From: Odontesthes bonariensis
Taxonomy: Eukaryota; Chordata; Actinopteri; Atheriniformes; Atherinopsidae
Direction of reading: 5' to 3'
Length of the DNA stretch: 64,000 nucleotides
Assembly: GCF_027942865.1 (NCBI RefSeq)
Contig: NC_134510.1
Coordinates: forward strand, 13,358,743 to 13,422,742
Part shown: positions 3,201-63,053 of the stretch, piece by piece
How the letters are laid out: each line of letters begins with the position of its first letter
Numbering within the stretch: position 1 is the stretch's first letter
Position numbers and translations under genes: made by a program
The notes under the pieces: generated by a model
Database searches by the model: none
Told to the model about the DNA's origin: nothing
Seen by the model: the letters and a program-made list of their open reading frames with translations, nothing else

Positions 3201-5137
3201 AAGTCACTTATTGTGGAATGGACCGTCTTTTTACTGGCTCCTTTGTCTTCCGCAGGCAACTCGAGCCTCGGCCAGAGCCACTGCGGTTGTGGGGGCTTTC
3301 ATCAGCTGTCTCAACACAATCGTTTAAGAGGCCAGCCCTGACCAGAATTAATGAAATATTCACATCTATAACCAATCATCATTTTAATGTTGAGAGGGGA
3401 ACCAGAGTTTGCATGAATGACAAATTGTACCGTTGGACATATTTACGATGGGATAAAGAATATCCTACTGATATATCTATCATGGTTTTGTTCTTAAATT
3501 TGGGTTGTATTATACTGGCCAGCCCTCCCACAGTTAAACGTTGCCTCAAGTTCTCCCTGTCTTTGTCATCGGGTAAGGTTAGGGTCAACCAGAGATGAGT
3601 AATGGCGCATAAACCTAAAAGAACTTTGCCGTTCTCTTAGTGATGAATTCATCTGAACAACCATAGTACAGTAGATGCATTCTCCCGTGTGTCTGCAGCA
3701 GCACTGACCTCGTGTTTAAAAAACAAGAGGGCACTGACAGCAATTCAGATATTTAAGTTAAAGATTAATAAGGGACATTGATACTCACACCCTTTTTGAG
3801 AATCATTGATTTCTTTTACGTTCATCATGGTCTGACTGCTTTCTCGTGATGAATATAATGGCTGTGCTTACATGCAGTTATATTCTGATATTAACCCAAT
3901 TAAGGTTGTGCTCTGAATAAGAGAATATCTGAGTTTCTATGAACGTTTTTGATTTGCATTTAGAAGATGTAAGAAAATGTCCACTGATGAAAAAAAACAA
4001 ATGTTTTTACTCTTTTTTTTTTTGTTTGTTTGCTTGTTTCAAAGAAGGACAGGATGGAAACAACTTTGTCAGTTGTGCCAGATTTGGTAAAGACTGAAAT
4101 GACGTGACACCCAGATGTTTCTGGTCTAAGCGTTCAAACAGTAAACTCATGTGTCTGACTGGCGTTTTCGCAGATATTAGATGACCTTCCAGAGATGAAA
4201 GTATCTCCTGAAGAGGAGATTTCTCCCTGTTGATGAGTGTCCACTGCAGTTGTCTTTTCTTTTCTTTTTTTTTTTTTGAGGTTTGTTTCCATTTAGGACA
4301 ACTATTTTTCTACTGAATTACAACCACTAGCAGCAAAGACTATACCGCCACTTTCTGGCAACACTACACAGCTTAGTTTGTTTGCTTGAAACCAGTCGAT
4401 GGAAATGTGCCTGATTCTCGTGTCTTTTTTTTGCGGGTTTTCGAAAGATCATTTTAGATTTGCTTCGATAACAAATGGAAACCCAGCCACTGCCATGAAA
4501 ACAGTTTTTTTTTTTATAATAATCTAACAAAGCTATGTGAAGTATATTAGCTGCCTCATCGACACACCTTAATTTTGGCTCTTTAATCCTGCTAAAGATT
4601 TCATGGCATCTTGCAACACACATTGCTGCTTTACAGCTCTTGTTTTGGCCTTGTTTTGATGGACTGGGTTGCTTGTTACCGTGTCAAGATCCGGCATAAC
4701 GGGCTCAGGCTGAGTTTAGTACAGAACAAAAAGGCTACGGTAACACACTTTTTCACACACTTTTGTGGTGAGGGAAAAAACTGTGTTGGCCAATGCCCTG
4801 TGGTTTGGGAGTTATGGATGAAATTAAGACTTCGGATGGGAGCAAACATTGCAACTATATAGGTGAACGGGATGCGGGCATGAGTCATTAATCGTACGAT
4901 GCTTTGTAACATGTAACTGGGAATATGAATGGAATATCCGCTCTGCAAGATTAATGTCTTAATGACATTAAAGTAACTAGTCTGAATATTGCTCTGCATG
5001 TAGACATTATTTCATGAATTAAGCTAAAAGTTGTGAGTGTCACCAGTGAATATTTTTCCATCGAAGGATACCCTCACTTTGGCGCATTTTCAGTTTGATT
5101 CCATGTAATGAATCACCTTTTTTTCTCTGTCTTGCAG
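286..5137 (+). other. Intron or upstream sequence of rspo2, no gene seen
   Basis: AT-rich sequence before the first recognisable rspo2 coding exon, ending in a good polypyrimidine tract and cttgcag acceptor. I searched for an exon encoding the R-spondin signal peptide and found none. The longest open stretch, 3071-3598 on the plus strand, has no recognisable domain. Poly-A and poly-T runs occur near 1271, 4012 and 4264. Confidence 0.6.
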
Positions 5138-5326
5138 CTAGCTATGGAGCATACCCCATCTGTAAAGGCTGCTCTGTGTGCTCCAGGGATAATGGCTGTG
5201 TAAATTGCCAACCCAAACTCTTCCTGTTCCTGCGGAGGGAGAGGATGAGGCAGTACGGGGAGTGTCTTCACGACTGTCCAGCCGGGTACTATGGCATGCG
5301 CAGCCCAGAAGTCAACATGTGTTCCA
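5138..5326 (+). CDS. rspo2: rspo2 exon: furin-like cysteine-rich repeat 1
   Basis: 189 bp between a cttgcag acceptor and a gtaaga donor. It encodes [12 protein letters not shown] through a YYGMR segment to NMCS. Six-plus cysteines sit in the spacing of an R-spondin furin-1 repeat (CKGC, CSRDNGC, CVNCQPK, GEC, DCP). The beta-hairpin RERMRQ holds the Arg and Gln needed for ZNRF3/RNF43 binding in R-spondin structures. The frame continues past the donor in genomic DNA to 5502, but that is intron read-through. Confidence 0.93.
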
Positions 5327-8300
5327 GTAAGAGCTTCCCTGGGTTAACTCACCCACACTCCATCACACTCCACCTTTATCCCTCAGACTTTCTCCCCCCG
5401 CCATCCCAGCCACACAGACACAATGCTTCAACTTCCCTTTTTCCCACAGCCCAAGATTTATTGGCAGTTATCCAGTGGAGACACACATACCTCACAGTTT
5501 GAACATCTTGTCTGTTCACACAGGTGAATGCTCTAGTCCCTCGGGAATTAATATTGAACTCTTGCTATGATGAGCCTGTTGCTTCTCTTTATTTTTTTCC
5601 TTTCACACCCCCCCCACCCGAATTACTAAACATCCTGTGCATGAGCTTGAGTCTGAAGCCATGAAATCCGGGTGATGGAACCAAGATGCGCCAGTGTTAC
5701 ATTATATGCAACATAGATAAATCATCCCTTTTTTTAATGTCTTCAAAGCAATGTTTTTCATTCGAAAAGAAAGCAAGCCACAACTGAAGTGTCCATATCG
5801 TGCAGCACCAAGCTGAACAAATCATTAAGAGCAGCATTTATGCTTTCAATTGGTAGTGTATAAATGAAGGAGGCCAATTTTTAATCAAATCTATTTGGCT
5901 TACTTTAATTTGCTTCTTTGTTTCTCAGATTAAACCATATCAGATTTTTTGCTAATGTTCTCCTCTTTGTAACACATTTTATGGACTGCAGTGATCTTGG
6001 ACTCTTGAGAGACCGCCCTTTTGGTCTGACACGATCTGAATTTGGTTTTACTGTTAATAAAAACTCCAAACAAGAACAATGACAAGTCAAAATGTTTTCA
6101 ACAATTCCCGTTTAAGACTAGCACTCAAATACAATTAAAGAAGTCTACCTTTCTCCTCCTCATGTAGCCGCCTGATCTCATAACCTGATGTGAACATGGA
6201 AAATGCTCTGAGAGACGTAGAGAGACTTTATAGGTTTACACAGTGCCTGAGGTGTTGGCTGAGTGTTTCATATGAAAACAGAGAGAAACCTGAAGCTTTT
6301 TAGTTCCCTGAGCCAAACTCCTGACAGAAGCACAAAAGTGAATACCCAGAGGAGGGTGTCCGAACCTTTAGGCCGAATAATATCAACGTGTAGCAACTGC
6401 AGGAAGAGAAAAGAACTACGATACATTTTGCTTAACCAGTCTCTGCAAATGCAAATACTGCTGGCTCCATTTTGTTATGACAATGAAAAACATGTTAAAG
6501 CTGCAGTTGCCAGTTTCGGACTGTTCTCATAGAAGACTTTGAATTCAGTACCCCAGAATCTAAAAGGTCAATGTCTGGTATCTTCTTTTTTTACCAAGTT
6601 AAAGGGGAAGTTCGTTTTATTTAAACCTGGACCTTATTTCTGGCCTAAAATACGTTGATGCTCATTCACTCCGTGCTCTGTGGCGGTCGGCTATCTTTAC
6701 ACGGAGTTTGCTACTGCTAGTTTTGTGCAACATGGCCCCCCGCCCGGTAAGCCCCCAATAACAACAACACGGCAGCTCTGAGCAAACAGTGCAATAGTGC
6801 GCTTTCATTCATTCATTCGTCTTAAAGTATTGGTGAAATAAAGACAGATAAGGCCTTATTTAGAGGCTGTATTGTCAATGCCCTCCTCACTCCCGTTATA
6901 TGGATGTACGCGGATCTCGAGTAATCTAAATAGCATCCGAAGGACGGCGACTTTCACCAAACTGTTATCGGTCAGTAGATGAACTTATTCTATGCCAGAA
7001 ATAAGGTCCAGGTTTAAAAAAAAAAAACAAAAGACTTCCCCTTTAAGTTTGGATTCTGCATCAGTCTAGCGCAGAATTCATTGGCATCATGTTGATTAAG
7101 TGTGTATATTTTTTTCCTTCAGAAGAGTACGGTTTCACAATTATAAAATCTTAAATGAAATTGAAGTAATTGATCACAAAAGAATATTTGACGTTTCGCA
7201 TGCTCTTTCGAAGTCAGGTACTTCGGTTGTGTTAATTTTTCTGTGTTCAGTGCCAAAACTGCCAAGTGTCAGCTTGGACTTAGAGCCGGAGGTGTGACAG
7301 TTAACGTATACCATCTTCCGCAGCTTCATTCCCTGAACACACTATGTGTCATTAGCTTGATGGTGGAAAATTAGCCACCATCAAGCCTATGTGCAGGAAT
7401 CACCTGGTTTTGTTCAGAAATTAGCTAGAAATTGTGAATTCCAGATAACAAGCCACACGTCATATTGTGTGCTATCATTATACGTTTTTATTTATAACTT
7501 TATAGGTCATTATCATGCTTTAAAATGAAATGCTAAAATTTTACAAAGTATAAAAAAGTCTAGCAATATATGCCTGATATGCTGCCTTGAATTATGTTAC
7601 AGAGTTTGAGGTCTTTTTAACCCATCAGCTTTTCTGTGGGGGGCAGCACTTCTTTATGCCCATGATAAGCTAGTTGTTGAGGATTTTTAAATACCTCCAA
7701 ATTGTTTGCTCTTACTGCAGAATGCACACATTTGTTTTTATTAGTAGCTTATGAAGATTAGCTGCATTTTACAAGTACCTTGTTCCAGATTTTTTAATAG
7801 AACAAACACAAAACTGAGACTAAATCTGATTCATTGGATTCTTTTGCAGTGGAGAGACTTTTCAACACTTACCAAGACCAATCAAGGGTTAACAATCAGG
7901 CATACCCTACTATATTTCTGCAAACTAATGAAAATTAATGTCTTATTGATTTTTACACCAGTCTCTTTTAGCAACCTTCTGGTATCGACCAGATACCCCC
8001 CACACAAAACACATGTTTTCTGCATGCCCATCTTCATCCTCAAATTCAAGTTTATCAAATCTCCCCACATAAGAGGAAAAACCTTAAAGAATCCACAGTC
8101 ATTTCACCCTATTTTCATAACTGAGATAATTGGCAGAGAAAAACATCTTGTTCTCTGGTTTGAAAAAAAGACTCTGCCATCTTAACCACACGTTGATTTG
8201 AATCCCTTGCCATACACACTGCTGTTAGAACAACATCTTGTATTGTCACATAGCATCAGATCTCAGAGCGAGACCTACTTTGATGTGATAGCTGCTTCAG

Positions 8301-14300: not shown

Positions 14301-17300
14301 ACACTATTTGTCTTGATACTGCTCTTTATAGTTGAAAACATGTGAGATGTTTGTGTCCATCCACATTTTTGGATCAAACTGTTGCACGAGGTCAGTGTTG
14401 CTAAGTTCCTCACCTGCGGTTGAGTTTTGACCCTTTTGATTTGCTCACTTTGAACAAGAACCGGAAGATAAGGATAAAACCGTGATGTCAGGCAAAACTA
14501 ATTTTTCTGAAATACACTTGAGCCCCGCTGAGAAATGATTCACAGACCATTGTCGGCCTTATTTGAGGGAGAGACACTATAATTCCTCCAAGAACCCTCC
14601 TTTCCCCAAACTCTGTAGCTCTCAATCAGCTCCAGATGAGAGGGTTTCTCAGACCCTTCTGATTCTCTTCTGTTTCTTCCTCTAGGGTGCAGGATAGAGA
14701 ATTGCGAGTCCTGCTTCAGCAAAGATTTCTGCACCAAGTGCAAGTCGGGTTTTTACCTACACAAAGGGCGCTGCTTTGATAAGTGCCCCGAGGGCTTTGC
14801 CCCGCTGGAAGACACCATGGAGTGTGGAGGTATGTGGATATAAACAAATATACAGAAGAATTATGTGAACCCCCCTTTTTTGTTTCATACCCTTCTTTAG
14901 CTGTAAACACTTTTCTATAACTTCTCATTTGGGCTGCTTATTTTGGACCTAAAAAACAAGCAGTTCAACTGGGACCACACACAAAGGGGTGATAACATCC
15001 CAGTAAAAGCTCCCTCAACCTGCATTAAAGCTTGACCCGGAGTTTTCTCAAAATGGCACTGTGGTTTCACTGCACCTCACTGTTTCTGTGTCCCCCTGCA
15101 GAGGGCTGTGAGGTGGGTCAGTGGAGCGAATGGGGAGCCTGCACCAGGAGAAACAAAACCTGCGGCTATAAGTGGGGTCTGGAGACCCGGACGCGGCACA
15201 TTGTAAAGAAGCCACCCAAGGACACAATACCCTGTCCGACCATCGCTGAGTCCAGGATGTGCAGAATGGCCATGAGACATTGCAGAAGAGGTAAGGACTT
15301 TTTTAAAATTTTTTTATTAGCAATATGCTGAAGTGGATATGAAGGAAAACAGCCCACTTTTCCCAACAGAGATCTCTTCTCAGAGTTTCACCTGTGTCGT
15401 GTAACCCTTGCTCCTCACATTGTTTTTTCACCGTCTGTGTTGTTAAGGTTGACAGTGGCATTTCCTTGCATGAAATATCAGTATTTTTCCATGGCAGCCT
15501 TCTTCTGGACAGCTCTTTTCCAGAGGTATATTTCCCACCACTCTCTTCCATCTCCCTTCATCTCCTCAGTGGAATTCTTCAAAGTACGAACTCCAGGTTT
15601 CCTCAATGGCCGTCTCTGTTTCCTCCTGTCAGCTTGAGAGATTTTTGTGGTGCACGTAGCATGTATGTCAGGCCATTAAATGAAAAGTCGGTGGAATTTC
15701 TCCGTGCGCAAATACAGCTAAAGGAAATATTTTTTTCAAAGAGTAAACCATTTCCCTCAGATGGTCCAAACACACCATTTGGGGTGAGGGCCTCACTTAG
15801 TGCTTTTAAAATAAATGTCTTCTCCCTTAATGTACTTTTACATCTCTCATAAACTTTGGATTAGGATAGTCCAAGTGTAAATATTTAATTCACCAAATAA
15901 GGAAGCGATTACGGTGGCAGATATCATTCTGTCTGTAAAAAAGAAAAACCGTTGTGTAACAGAAAAAGGAAAATATTCTAACCTCGAGGATTTCTCTCCA
16001 TTTTTGGCCTGGTGTGCTGAATGGGAGGGTCACTTAGTGAAGTGTTGAAAGAGTAAATAAACTTGAAATAAACCCTGATAGTTTCTCATATTTCAGCACT
16101 ACCAGGGCAGTCGCTGCTGTCTTGGTTGGAAACTATGATCCCATGGCACATTAAGTTCTTGAAGCCCAGTCCTGTCAGGATGTCAGGGAAATTCTCCCCA
16201 TCCCCCCACCCACCTCTGCATGACTTTGACATGTCTGCTTGACCTTTTCCTAGAAACTTTATGACCCTCCTTAATTAAAACTTGGCATTGTTGCACATGG
16301 ATACGGTCGTCAGTTATCCCAGGCGTCAGTCACTGACGGGAAGATGCTGTTTAGGATCATTTATAAATACATAGAAAAATACTCGGTTCTGAAGAAAACC
16401 ATCCGCTGACTCCCCATGTCCGTCTTACTTAAAACTACTGCTGCCTGGTCATGTGGTCATTGTAAAGTTCTCAGTACAGTTCCTCATCCAGTGACTGAGT
16501 TACATCTCTGGTGGCTACAAACTGTGTGTAAAAGTGTCAATGTATATGCATCGTAGGACTCTCTGGGCTTGTGAAGTGCTGTGGTGGCCAGTTTAATAAA
16601 GGCAAATTTCAGACTCAGGCATGTGTTGTTAATTCCCCACTGCTAGTGAAAAATCCCCACTTGGCACAAGCCAGTGAAATGCAACACTCTACAGTTCAAA
16701 TAAATACAGGGAAAAATGTGAGCCACTGAAGCTAAACAGGAGAAGGAACACTCCGCAGATGCAGGCGTGTCGCATTGATGTCTGACCGACTTGTGTTGTA
16801 AAATAATCACTTGTCGTGAGTGATGACAAAGGGTTCTCCAAAAAAGAGGCAAAAGGCAATCTCTGAAAAGGAGGAGATTGGAACGAGTACTTTGAGGCAC
16901 AGTCCTTAACCACATCGGGTCACCATTCCCTGGACAATTAGGTTGCTGGTGACACACCACTCTCCCTAATCTGAGGCTAAACTTGTTCCTGAATTACACT
17001 GAACGCAGCATTTTATGCTGTAATGACAGTGAACGCACGATAGCCTCCCTGGAACACTATCATGCTCCCTCCATAAGACCCCGTATGTTTAGTAGCAGGG
17101 CAACAAGCTGACGGCTCCTGCTTTTTCAGTGCAATTAGTGAGTTGTAATTGTTTTAAACATACAAGAGAAAGTGATTGTCAAACATTAGTAATTTAGTAT
17201 GATGACATTTAAACGACAGCGGTTGGAAATAGCTTTAGTAATGTGTTTGTATCGATTAACTAATTATCCGTGTGCTAAGTACACTAAAGAATGCTATACC

Positions 17301-45794: not shown

Positions 45795-46325
45795 TCAGGT
45801 ACAGCACATGCCGCAGACACCAATGTTGCAGCAGCCACAGCAGAACTGGCATCTAATGGGGGCAGCAGAACTCCTTCCCCTGATGTCATATGGCATCTGT
45901 GTGACAGACAAGAGACATGGGTCAGGTTATTCATTCTTACCAAATTCTCATATGCAGTATTTCAGGGCTTATTCATTGGGATAAACACACTGAATTTAAA
46001 TTATCACTTGAATTGAACATGTTGAATGACATATTCCTATGTAATCATCTGAGCATACCATCCATGTTTCCACTGATGTCTCCTCTTGTGAGGCAGCTGG
46101 ACTGTTGGCGCTTGTTGCCTCCTCCGGCTCCGACACCTGTTGATGAGTTGTGCACATTTAGGAACAACATTATATCATTCTAAAACAGAAAAGAACAGTC
46201 GCCTACAGAACAAATGAGCAAAGTAAACATTTGAATATATTTACTTTGGGAAGTGGTGAGGACGAGTTCCTCTGAAAGCAGATAAAGGTGAGTGCAAAAA
46301 CAACTGCAACTCTCAATGTCCTCAT
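45795..46325 (-). CDS. hamp2: Hepcidin (type 2), eight cysteines, furin site weakened
   Basis: Three exons on the minus strand: 46245-46325 (27 codons), 46059-46136 (26) and 45795-45896 (33 plus stop), giving 86 residues. Donors are GTAAAT and GTATGC; acceptors end ACAG. The signal peptide starts MRTLRVAVVFALTFIC. The pro-region starts VSEPEEATSANSP. The mature part has PIRCQFCCGCCNIGVCGMCC-T, the full eight-cysteine hepcidin pattern with four residues between C5 and C6. The usual R-x-K-R before the mature peptide is reduced to RGR (MPYDIRGRSS), apparently by loss of one codon, so proprotein processing may be impaired. No Q-S-H-x-S hamp1 N-terminus. It is the most diverged gene of the cluster in the signal and pro-regions. 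Secreted peptide; antimicrobial or ferroportin-related function is inferred from the family. Confidence 0.9.
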
Positions 46326-49854: not shown

Positions 49855-50298
49855 CTAAGCATAGCAGCATTTAGTGCAGACACCATCAGTGCAACATCTG
49901 TAACAATAGGCGCCACGCCTTTTCCTGCCTTTAAACAGCATCTGTATGACAGAAAAGAGACATGAGAACAATATTCATCTCCTGCATTATCAAATACACT
50001 TTGTGGGACAGAAATATCTAAATTAGCTCACTGATTAATCTAACTTGACATACCTTCGGCATTTCGAAAATCACCTCCTCATCTGCAGCAGCTGGAGCAT
50101 CGACACTCATTGGCTCCTCCATCTCTTGGCCCTGTTGATGAGTTGGACATGTTTACAGTTGGAACCACATTTGAGCCATTTGCTGCTAAAAGTTTTGGGA
50201 CTATTTCTTACTTCAGTAACTGGTACAGCAGAGCTCTCCTGGGTACAGATGAATGTGAGCGCGATGGCCACTGCAACTGCAACGGTGAAAGTCTTCAT
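49855..50298 (-). CDS. hamp: Hepcidin-like peptide with six cysteines
   Basis: Exons on the minus strand: 50212-50298 (29 codons), 50054-50131 (26) and 49855-49941 (28 plus TAG), total 83 residues. Donors are GTAAGA and GTATGT. The signal peptide is MKTFTVAVAVAIALTFIC and the pro-region begins AVPVTE then GQEMEEPMSVDAP. Exon 3 starts MLFKGRKRRGAY; RKRR is a good furin site. The mature part is only about 19-20 residues, with CYRCCTDGVCTKCC ending YA. Compared with the canonical C-xx-CC-x-CC-x4-C-xx-CC pattern, one x-C-C triplet is missing, which removes two cysteines without breaking the frame. Splice sites, TATA-like box and poly(A) signal are intact, so I call it a gene, not a pseudogene. 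It was probably derived from a type-2 hepcidin. Confidence 0.85.
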
Positions 50299-53546: not shown

Positions 53547-54246
53547 TATCCAATAAGGGTAATAGGCTGTTGTTAATGAGCATATACTTTCAGAAATGAG
53601 TTGCTTGGTTAAATTCTGTCAAAGATCATATTTCGGTATGCAGCAAGACGATATCTCTGACATTATGATGCAAAAATATAATCTTGCTTCATTTTTACAC
53701 TAATGTTTACAAAATACACATTTGTTCCATTGCTTAGGCATCAAGGAACATTTTTACATCAAAAATATTGTGCGTGCCTACTGATTTTTCCATAAAAAGA
53801 GTGATTATGGTCATCTTACTGCAATACCTTAATGTATGCTTGTGTAATTTTAAGCAGTAATACAAAGGCAAAACGCAGTATAGCCTATAAAATTACCAGA
53901 TTTTGCAAAAATGTAAAAAAACTAAAAGGGTGGTGTTCACCTCACTTTAATCTATCTAATAATACATTTTGTTGTTAAATATAATTTAAAACTTTTACTT
54001 GGTGTAAAAAAAACACAAAAAGCTGTTTTTCTCAGTTTGGGGTTTTTGCACTTACTGCTCTTTGGCTTTGTAGGGCAGTATTGTTCACACACTGTTCAGG
54101 TATTTAGAAACCCTTTAAAATCCATTCATACATTTCTAGCAACATTCTCAAAACATTAGATGTGTCATGAATAGAATTCAAAGAAGTATGCTTTTTAATG
54201 ACAAGAAAAAAGACATTTGAAGCCAACGTTCCATCAGCAGGAAGCC
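53547..54246. other. Spacer before the four-cysteine hepcidin gene
   Basis: AT-rich, nothing coding seen. An ATTAAA hexamer on the minus strand at 54194-54199 could serve as the poly(A) signal of the next gene. Confidence 0.5.
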
Positions 54247-54712
54247 TCAGAGACTGCAGGAAATTCCACAATGAAATCCGTTGGGTGTTGTCTCACAGTA
54301 AGGTGTACAATGTATTCCACGTTTCTGTCTACTGTTAATCATCATCTGTGTGAAAGATGAGACATAAAACACAACATCTCACATCCCTTCACGTACACAC
54401 AGGAAAAGTTTGTTAGAAAAAATATTTACACAAGTTATTTATTCATTAATCTTTACATACTGTACCTTAACCAAGTCTACGGATGGATCTTCAACTGCAG
54501 CAGATTGAATGTCAGCACTCACCGGCTCCTCTGCTCCTCTAACCTTTGAATGAATTGGTCATGTTTACAATATTTTCCTATTTTAGAAATTCTTTTAGCT
54601 GTTAAAAGTTTAGTCAAGCTCTTACTGCGATGACTGGGACAGCACAGCTACCCTGAATACAGATAAACGTGAGCACAACAGCGACAGCAACTGCAGCACA
54701 GAATGCCTTCAT
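54247..54712 (-). CDS. hamp: Hepcidin-like peptide with only four cysteines
   Basis: Exons on the minus strand: 54626-54712 (29 codons), 54466-54543 (26) and 54247-54345 (32 plus TGA), total 87 residues. Donors are GTAAGA and GTACAG; acceptors end AAAG and ACAG. The signal peptide is MKAFCAAVAVAVVLTFIC; the pro-region has AVPVIA then VRGAEEPVSADIQ. Exon 3 has SRQKR, a clear furin site, followed by GIH and CTPYCETTPNGFHCGISC-SL. Aligned to the eight-cysteine pattern, C2 is Tyr, C4 and C5 are Thr-Thr and C7 is Ser, while C1, C3, C6 and C8 remain. In hepcidin structures C1-C8 and C3-C6 are disulfide partners, so two complete bonds are kept and two complete bonds are lost. The promoter is degraded relative to its siblings. 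Frame and splice sites are intact; either a specialised peptide or an early pseudogene. Confidence 0.85.
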
Positions 54713-54816: not shown

Positions 54817-54824
54817 CATTTGTA
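54817..54824 (-). promoter_or_regulatory. Degenerate TATA position of the four-cysteine hepcidin
   Basis: Minus strand TACAAATGCCAGC stands where sibling genes have TATAAATACCAGC, 105 bp before the ATG. Two substitutions destroy the TATA consensus. Confidence 0.55.
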
Positions 54825-55018
54825 CTCACAGGGGCAATTGTTGCTTCATCACCAACAGTATGTACCTGCAGTGGCGACTGGTCATTAGGGGCAAATTAAT
54901 GTTTAAACTTCTATTTGAACATTAAGTTCAATGGGCTGCCAGACATAACTTCAGTATTTTAATCATTAAATCATTAGAATTTTAAGTTTGGCCATAACAA
55001 CAAAAACTGACTCATTAA

Positions 55019-55439
55019 AGTACTACTATGTAACTTCTCAAAAAGCCCATTATGGAGCTCCCCCTACAGGCTTAGAGGTAATGTACGGTTACACTGTCGT
55101 AAATACAACACCCTTTCGCTTTCACGTTTCACGTTTGTTGACGAACCGGCGAGGAGTCAGAAGGTGCAAGCTATGTCGACCGAGAAGGTAAGAGTAATCA
55201 AATGTACCTGGGAGCGTGAGAGGGGTCTATTTGTTTTTGCGGTAGGTGTGCCAGAAAGCAAGTCGAAGTACTTCCGCTCAGCTCCCGGGCCGGTCCAGCA
55301 AAGTTACATAGCGCAGTTATTCCAACTCAGACCCCCGAAGGGCATAGGAGACAGGCCAATCGTAATATTAAAACTCATTCTAGCCGCACAATTTTTTTCA
55401 AGCTGTTATTTTAAGGTAGAAATGTTACATAGTATTGCT
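55019..55439. mobile_element. TTAA-flanked MITE, about 421 bp
   Basis: The left end AGTACTACTATGTAAC and the reverse complement of the right end AGCAATACTATGTAAC form an imperfect inverted repeat. TTAA lies at 55015-55018 and 55440-55443. Non-coding, piggyBac-type target duplication. Confidence 0.78.
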
Positions 55440-56341: not shown

Positions 56342-56856
56342 TCAGAAATCGCAGCAGACACCACAAAGAGTCATGCCACAGCAGTTACAGCAATATCTGC
56401 ATTTAGCAGCAGCGAGGCGCTTCTGTCTGATTCCATACGGCATCTGTGTGGGACAAGAAGAAGGTTTTCATCACAGTCTGATCAGTCACTCTCCTTCTCC
56501 TCTTTATGAAACAACAGAGCACCAGGACTCTTCACAGTACAACCCATTCATTCACATTATAGATGATATTTCAATTCATTCATTGGGTTAACTAAACGTA
56601 CCTTCCAAAATTCCACTGGCATCTCCTGATTTCCAGCAACTGGACTGTCCTCGGCCATCTCCTCCACCCTATCATGCACCTGTTAAAGAACGTGTCAGAT
56701 TCAGGAATAAAGTCTTGACTTGTTGAGAACATTTTCATTGCACTGAAAGGGTTTAAATAGAGCTCTTACTTCAGAGCTCGGAGCAGCAGAGCTCTCCTGA
56801 ATACAGATAAATGTGAGCACGACGGCCACTGCAACTGCAACGCTGAATGTCTTCAT
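56342..56856 (-). CDS. hamp2: Hepcidin (type 2), eight cysteines, inverted-pair copy A
   Basis: Exons on the minus strand: 56770-56856 (29 codons), 56602-56679 (26) and 56342-56443 (33 plus TGA), total 88 residues. Introns are 90 and 158 bp with GTAAGA and GTACGT donors. The signal peptide is MKTFSVAVAVAVVLTFIC; the pro-region has APSSE then VHDRVEEMAEDSPV. Exon 3 reads MPYGIRQKRLAAAK, with RQKR as the furin site, then CRYCCNCCGMTLCGVCCDF, the full eight-cysteine pattern. No Q-S-H-x-S N-terminus, so type 2. Exons 1 and 2 are identical at every base to the gene at 61084-61598; exon 3 differs at seven bases. Family role: a secreted cationic peptide made as a prepropeptide, induced by infection in many fish, and able in some types to regulate ferroportin. 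Confidence 0.95.
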
Positions 56857-61083: not shown

Positions 61084-61598
61084 ATGAAGACATTCAGCGT
61101 TGCAGTTGCAGTGGCCGTCGTGCTCACATTTATCTGTATTCAGGAGAGCTCTGCTGCTCCGAGCTCTGAAGTAAGAGCTCGATTTAAACCCTTTCAGTGC
61201 AATGAAAATGTTTTCAACATGTCTGGACTTTATTCCTGAATCTGACACGTTCTTTAACAGGTGCATGATAGGGTGGAGGAGATGGCCGAGGACAGTCCAG
61301 TTGCTGGAAATCAGGAGATGCCAGTGGAATTTTGGAAGGTACGTTTAGTTAACCCAATGAATAAATTGAAATATCATCTATAATGTGAATGAATGGGTTG
61401 TAGTGTGAAGAGTCCTGGTGCTCTGTTGTTTCATAAAGAGGAGAAGGAGAGTGACTGATCAGACTGTGATGAAAACCTTCTTCTTGTCCCACACAGATGC
61501 CGTATGGAATCAGACAGAAGCGTCTCGCTGCTGCTAAATGCAAATTTTGCTGTAACTGCTGCGGCATGAGTGGTTGTGGTGTCTGCTGCGATTTCTGA
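61084..61598 (+). CDS. hamp2: Hepcidin (type 2), eight cysteines, inverted-pair copy B
   Basis: Exons: 61084-61170 (29 codons), 61261-61338 (26) and 61497-61598 (33 plus TGA), total 88 residues. Donors are GTAAGA and GTACGT; acceptors end ACAG. Signal peptide and pro-region are identical to the gene at 56342-56856. Exon 3 reads MPYGIRQKRLAAAK, with RQKR as the furin site, then CKFCCNCCGMSGCGVCCDF. Relative to the sibling, Arg is Lys, Tyr is Phe, Thr is Ser and Leu is Gly; all four changes lie in the mature peptide, with two silent changes in exon 3. It is the only hepcidin on the plus strand and heads a tandem unit that restarts at 62595. AATAAA at 61664-61669 serves as poly(A) signal. A secreted, furin-processed antimicrobial/iron-axis peptide by family. 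Confidence 0.96.
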
Positions 61599-62594: not shown

Positions 62595-62921
62595 AGGTTA
62601 ATCATGTCCTTCATGATGTATTTAAAAAAAAAAAGCAAATAAGAGTGAAAAATAAATGTAGTTAAAATGACAGAATAAAAATGTTTTCTGTTCAAGCAGG
62701 AAGGACAGAAAAGTTCATTATTGAACAGGCACATTATGAAAGATTGAAAAGTTGAAAGGTTTCCATTCTTTGATGAGTCCCCAGTCACATTTGCAGTGTC
62801 ACTTAGTGAGAGATGCCAAATCCATTGCTGGAAGAACATGCAGTCTGCCTTTGATGAGGCAACAATTGCTCAAGTGAGAGAACAACAGTCAGCAGCAAAA
62901 ACTGATCAGGAAGGGTTCAAA

Positions 62922-62995
62922 GGTGCTGTGGTTTAGTTGGTCAAAATGCCCGTCTAGTAAACAGGAGATCCTGGGTTCATATGCCAGCAGCACCT
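62922..62995 (+). pseudogene. tRNA-Thr(AGT)-like sequence, degenerate, probably a SINE head
   Basis: 74 bp with a perfect 7-bp acceptor stem (GGTGCTG with CAGCACC). The anticodon loop is CTAGTAA (anticodon AGT) on a CCCGT/ACAGG stem with one mismatch. The T-arm CTGGGTTCATATGCCAG has a decayed T-loop. Downstream AGGGATCAAAAAAGTTCTAA and TATCTATCTA (to about 63066) look like a SINE tail. Likely a tRNA-derived SINE or tRNA pseudogene, not an active tRNA. Confidence 0.6.
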
Positions 62996-63053
62996 GAGAG
63001 CTTTTTCCTTAATTTCACAGAGGGAACCTTCTAAGGGATCAAAAAAGTTCTAA

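Follow-up and report, generated by a model that had tools for sequence, protein, structure and literature searches.

A four-cysteine hepcidin paralogue with an intact reading frame in the hepcidin-2 cluster of Odontesthes bonariensis

In a 64,000-nt stretch of the Odontesthes bonariensis genome (hereafter the window; C6:13358743-13422742 of a 945-Mb assembly) we found a complete three-exon hepcidin gene, gene C, whose predicted mature peptide carries four cysteines. We consider it, with a probability of about 0.68, an intact HAMP2-lineage paralogue of the known four-cysteine type, whose product would be a secreted, two-bond hairpin peptide acting in host defence. Four-cysteine hepcidins are already known from groupers and other fishes, and gene C is a modest addition to them.

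Gene C occupies positions 54247-54712 of the window on the minus strand and encodes an 87-aa prepropeptide. Its introns (82 and 120 nt) both have GT-AG borders and all phases are 0, the coding sequence is free of internal stops, and an RQKR site directly precedes the mature peptide. The first-pass annotation had placed a four-cysteine hepcidin here and described its splice sites, frame and furin site as intact, and our reading of the gene agrees with it on both points. The convertase site was called from the RXRR/RXKR motif, as described in the available part of PMC9039748. The elements of the gene are as follows:

54626..54712, minus strand: gene C exon 1, signal peptide MKAFCAAVAVAVVLTFICIQGSCAVPVIA
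54466..54543, minus strand: gene C exon 2, propeptide VRGAEEPVSADIQSAAVEDPSVDLVK
54247..54345, minus strand: gene C exon 3, MMINSRQKR followed by the mature peptide and the stop
54319..54330, minus strand: predicted RQKR proprotein-convertase (furin-type) site of gene C, from the motif
54250..54318, minus strand: gene C mature peptide GIHCTPYCETTPNGFHCGISCSL, 23 aa with four Cys and an N-terminal Gly-Ile-His (ATCUN-type)

The exon layout, common to 12 paralogues, and the presence of RQKR are those of the hepcidin (HAMP) gene family. In tblastn the gene C signal exon is 67-77% identical to those of three further hepcidin genes in the window (E 6e-9) and more weakly similar to that of gene A (E 0.005), and we therefore regard it as homologous to them rather than alike by chance. 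Against the Pfam Hepcidin family (PF06446) gene C scored 20.6 bits (E 5.7e-4), below the curated cut-off of 27; the six-cysteine gene B scored 22.2 bits, and genes A, D and E1 scored 60.9-64.4 bits. The mature peptide has four cysteines instead of the canonical eight with their four bonds, and gene C is thus a hepcidin by descent, not an eight-cysteine hepcidin; with a HAMP-type prepropeptide and exactly four mature cysteines, it belongs to the four-cysteine type. A direct genome search with its mature peptide returned no second copy, a PDB sequence search with the same peptide gave no match, and no relatives were found in viral and prokaryote genome contigs, as expected for a vertebrate gene.

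The surrounding cluster, read between 13.395 and 13.505 Mb of the same contig, comprises 13 hepcidin-2 genes within 62 kb (C6:13404537-13466371), each with an open frame. Mature cysteines number eight in genes A, D and E1-E9, six in B and four in C. E1-E8 lie on the plus strand, with E1-E6 spaced 3.38 kb and E6-E8 3.9 kb apart, and E9 lies on the minus strand; E1-E6 are six tandem units with identical mature peptides and E9 is an inverted copy. The cluster is a large recent expansion. The cluster members that share the window with gene C are:

45795..46325, minus strand: gene A, eight-Cys hepcidin-2 paralogue without an RXXR site before the mature part
49855..50298, minus strand: gene B, six-Cys hepcidin-2 paralogue, mature peptide GAYCYRCCTDGVCTKCCYA
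56342..56856, minus strand: gene D, eight-Cys hepcidin-2 paralogue
61084..61598, plus strand: gene E1, eight-Cys hepcidin-2 that opens a tandem array running past the window

Several of these genes show peculiarities of their own. Gene A reads DIRGRSS before its mature part, and its processing may differ; gene B may lack C4-C5, by deletion, or C1 and C3, and its bonds may be rewired; in E8 (C6:13444523-13445037) RQNR replaces RQKR; and the intron 2 donor of E9 (C6:13465856-13466371) is GC, not GT.

Gene C belongs to the HAMP2 lineage both by its position inside the tandem cluster and by phylogeny: in the best of the five codon trees tried it joined gene B, and then D/E1 (lnL -1403.1; next -1408.9). 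The available part of PMC6240063 reports HAMP2 only from Percomorphaceae and Ovalentaria, and on this ground the fish is probably a percomorph. Of 16 globin exons detected in the assembly, four were compared with the PDB. Three were nearest to 1xq5 (yellow perch), at 78, 83 and 76% identity, but for the one at 78% the next entry, 2aa1 (a notothenioid), stood at 76%, a poor separation; the fourth matched fused human constructs first and then 9tpz and 1out (trout). The assembly contained no COX1. Instead of the QSHLSL-type N-terminus that precedes C1 in HAMP1, the gene C peptide begins GIHC. A canonical HAMP1 with a QSHLSLC start is present at C6:30896098-30896205 (mature peptide QSHLSLCSLCCNCCKSYKGCGFCCKF), and together with 11 places in the cluster it accounts for the 12 places above cut-off in a Pfam search of the genome; genes B and C are not among these 12, and other diverged copies could be missed likewise.

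The cysteines of gene C are spaced C-X3-C-X8-C-X3-C and, judging from alignments, very probably correspond to C1, C3, C6 and C8 of the eight-cysteine pattern. Aligning the peptide pairwise to 13 reference hepcidins at three gap settings returned this register with six or seven of the 13, depending on the setting, and at every setting with all five references that have an 18-residue core (bass, three croaker Hamp2 and the HAMP1 of the same genome). Its scores were highest for bass (38.5), followed by croaker Hamp2 (30-35) and the fish's own HAMP1 (16.5-21). When residues were shuffled with the cysteines held fixed, the similarity to sea bass Hamp2 was reached in 122 of 20,000 shuffles and that to two croaker Hamp2 peptides in 86 and 241; for two HAMP1 peptides the counts were 2606 and 2648 of 20,000. 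A small profile HMM of 12 eight-Cys cores was uninformative, since it covered no more of the peptide than its CG..C end (1.0 bit).

The same four positions had been named in the first-pass annotation, and the Hamp2 alignments make them the most probable ones, but a default, unanchored MAFFT alignment with the window paralogues sets the cysteines at C2, C5, C6 and C8. If that register, or C1, C2, C6 and C8, were the true one, the bonds of gene C would be rewired rather than inherited. Six or seven of the 13 pairwise references, by gap setting, likewise return another set: two four-residue-loop paralogues, gene B, human and crocodile hepcidin and croaker Hamp1, joined at two of the settings by golden pompano, with C1, C2, C6 and C8 obtained against genes D and E1 and C2, C5, C6 and C8 against human hepcidin. 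All of these contrary alignments score at most 23.5, as compared with 30-38.5 for the 18-residue-core Hamp2 peptides, against which the C1, C3, C6, C8 register is gap-free and constant over the three settings; in addition, the GIHC start resembles GIKC1 of golden pompano hepcidin-2. A wrong register appears to us highly improbable.

Hepcidin bonds are given as C1-C8, C2-C4, C3-C6 and C5-C7 in the available part of PMC10253267. In the preferred register Tyr, Thr, Thr and Ser stand at C2, C4, C5 and C7, and the retained residues make up two whole bonds, C1-C8 and C3-C6, as the first-pass annotation had pointed out; its further argument that random decay would hardly leave such a pattern is weak, as 6 of the 70 four-cysteine subsets of eight make two whole bonds by chance (p = 0.086), and the statistical test was made only after the pattern had caught attention. 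A neutral gene C branch would leave two or more whole bonds and no unpaired cysteine with a probability of 0.039 at the whole-CDS branch length and 0.010 at that of the mature part, and the retention of at least four cysteines is not unusual (0.59 and 0.15, respectively). Given these chances and the 6/70 subsets, the pairing alone is compatible with decay, and we regard it as suggestive, not strong. The peptide would most likely form a two-bond beta-hairpin, with C1-C8 near its ends, C3-C6 nearer the turn and Pro-Asn-Gly in the loop.

Selection was assessed with a branch codon model on six of the 14 genes (A, B, C, D, E1 and HAMP1; E2-E9 were omitted as near-copies of E1), using an alignment anchored by hand to the preferred register and comparing five out of all possible topologies. 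Over the whole coding sequence, omega on the gene C branch was 0.37, with a likelihood ratio against 1 (6.97) that was reached by one of 60 neutral simulations, and for the signal and propeptide it was 0.34 (likelihood ratio 7.0, reached by 0/60). Neutral drift across the whole branch is thus rejected, and the signal and propeptide of gene C have been under purifying selection on its own branch. The mature part, with an omega of 1.28 that is indistinguishable from 1 (likelihood ratio 0.05, 16/40 simulations), could be relaxed or changing under selection. The difference in omega between gene C and the other branches was non-significant (likelihood ratio 2.63, coding sequence). Pairwise omega for the gene C signal was 0.19-0.39 against B, D, E1 and E8 and 1.06 against A; pairwise dN/dS was set aside for the branch model, as dS of exon 3 is saturated in several pairs and branches are inseparable, and intron divergence was too noisy to date the gene C branch.

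The surroundings of the coding sequence contain three further elements:

54817..54824, minus strand: altered TATA box of gene C, TACAAATG, identified by eye; TATAAATA stands there in A, D, E1-E9 and HAMP1
54194..54199, minus strand: candidate polyadenylation signal ATTAAA of gene C, identified by eye
55013..55200, no strand assigned: left-hand portion of a young dispersed repeat that begins about 300 bp upstream of the gene C ATG

At the place of the TATA box gene B reads TTTAAATA. The repeat has at least 39 other copies, with 95-98% identity among the matches listed. Because of the altered TATA box and the young repeat upstream, expression of gene C may be reduced. By eye, most E genes have an NF-kB-like GAAATTTCCC at some 215 bp upstream, and gene B has it at some 195 bp; the 220 bp upstream of gene C lack it.

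These upstream changes bear on the possibility that gene C is a decaying duplicate, constrained over most of its branch, which lost its function recently, with the cysteine losses and the TATA change as early decay that has so far spared the frame. Such a history would also account for an omega near 1 in the mature part, a value expected under relaxed constraint; the many paralogues could render gene C redundant; and the neutral retention of four or more cysteines is, as given above, common enough. Against it stand the rejection of whole-branch neutrality and the state of the gene itself: in simulations that ignore indels and assume the branch length, only about 2% of neutral runs still have an open frame and intact splice sites after 0.2 substitutions per site. 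The missing cysteines, moreover, correspond to whole bonds in the preferred register, and the Thr-Thr at C4-C5 (ACA ACA) needs several substitutions per codon, so that the change is not very recent. On balance we consider recent decay unlikely.

If gene C is instead an intact four-cysteine HAMP2 paralogue, its product would be secreted by way of the signal peptide, and cleavage after RQKR would release a peptide of 23 residues. Ferroportin would not be its target, and a part in host defence like that of other HAMP2 peptides is the more plausible role; no action on ferroportin is expected because the peptide is devoid of a QSHLSL-type N-terminus and the genome contains a canonical HAMP1. Its computed charge is -1.13 at pH 7.4 and 0.0 at pH 6, as compared with about +0.8 in the other cluster members, and it does not have the net positive charge of the cationic beta-hairpin antimicrobial peptides. 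With a charge between zero and slightly negative, the peptide probably does not lyse membranes strongly in the cationic manner, and binding to microbial surfaces, or of Cu(II)/Ni(II) at Gly-Ile-His, is more plausible than membrane attack.

The latter possibility derives from the N-terminus, which fits the ATCUN rule (free N-terminus, His at position 3, no Pro at position 2) if the precursor is cut after RQKR. With the mature start of gene A assumed, gene C alone among the 13 cluster genes has this motif, and HAMP1 of the same genome carries Gln-Ser-His at its mature N-terminus. ATCUN sites have been studied in human hepcidin-25 and in trout hepcidin (the latter in PMC4690011, in the part available), which, like the loss of charge, would be in keeping with a new job for gene C, in which a non-cationic two-bond hairpin binds copper or nickel instead of acting on membranes. 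Yet a lone His at position 3 may be due to chance (by our estimate, with a probability of roughly 1/20 to 1/40), cleavage after RQKR is itself a prediction, and trout hepcidin retained antibacterial activity when the motif was removed, according to the same portion of PMC4690011; a new role of this kind seems to us decidedly unlikely. Just as doubtful is the broader scenario in which the cluster scaffold was pared from eight cysteines (A, D, E) to six (B) and then four (C), the last gaining an N-terminal copper site and losing its positive charge; the resulting hepcidin would depend on copper, would not be cationic, and would serve neither iron control nor membrane attack but a task of its own. 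The only literature found to join hepcidin, ATCUN and four-cysteine forms was the review PMC4690011, which in its available part treats the two apart.

As for the four-cysteine type, EC-hepcidin3 of the orange-spotted grouper was reportedly described by Qu et al. in 2013 as a four-cysteine hepcidin, with a mature sequence reported to start APAKC. In that reported form it would share with gene C the C-X3-C-X8-C-X3-C spacing, the CTPYC...CGxxC arrangement and 10 of 18 core residues (an identity reached by 3 of 20,000 shuffles), but would have no ATCUN motif and would contain Lys and Arg, which are absent from gene C. We take this likeness as a lead. Should the reported sequence be right, gene C would be a relative of EC-hepcidin3 and the four-cysteine form an established type. 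Xu et al. are also said to have described, in 2008, a hepcidin with four cysteines in Antarctic notothenioids, as well as a variant that arose independently in an eelpout; these resemble gene C in their reduction to four cysteines. The activity of EC-hepcidin3 is in print, with reported effects on S. aureus and P. stutzeri (PMC4407539, in the part available), whereas gene C is known here from its sequence alone. Available parts of the literature further report four-cysteine hepcidins in E. akaara, E. coioides and rainbow trout (PMC4690011) and in the notothenioid D. mawsoni, whose genes range from three to eight cysteines (PMC9039748). The first-pass annotation, which had attributed four-cysteine hepcidins to some cold-water fishes, was right that the class is known but drew it too narrowly, as groupers also have them (PMC4690011, same part).

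With the eight-cysteine fish HAMP2 (sea bass Hamp2, croaker LcHamp2, genes D and E), gene C shares gene structure, signal peptide, RXKR site, cluster position and, for the 18-residue forms, core length; it differs in the replacement of C2, C4, C5 and C7 and in its lost charge, and has 7 of its 18 core residues in common with sea bass Hamp2. A more distant parallel is offered by the arthropod beta-hairpin peptides tachyplesin, polyphemusin and gomesin, which are cationic and have nested bonds in a C-X3-C...C-X3-C frame. We know of no common descent between these and gene C, whose loop is longer and whose peptide is not cationic. Common to them and to the structure predicted for gene C are two bonds (PMC13001179, in its available part).

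If expressed, gene C would add a four-cysteine hepcidin with its full genomic context, beside six- and eight-cysteine sisters, and would show in a natural setting which two of the four hepcidin bonds are enough to stabilise a hairpin. Taken with the peptides of groupers and trout, it bears on the question of whether polar cold is what drives the loss of cysteines.

Other features of the window include R-spondin-like exons at 5050-5502 and 15029-15331 (plus strand), on one side of the hepcidin cluster, with a Furin-like_2 match of 78.8 bits and a spondin-type TSP1 match of 39.8 bits, just below the cut-off of 41. A tRNA-Thr (AGT) was predicted by ARAGORN at 62921-62996 (plus strand), within the tandemly repeated E region; of the two repeat units that the window contains, only one yielded this prediction.
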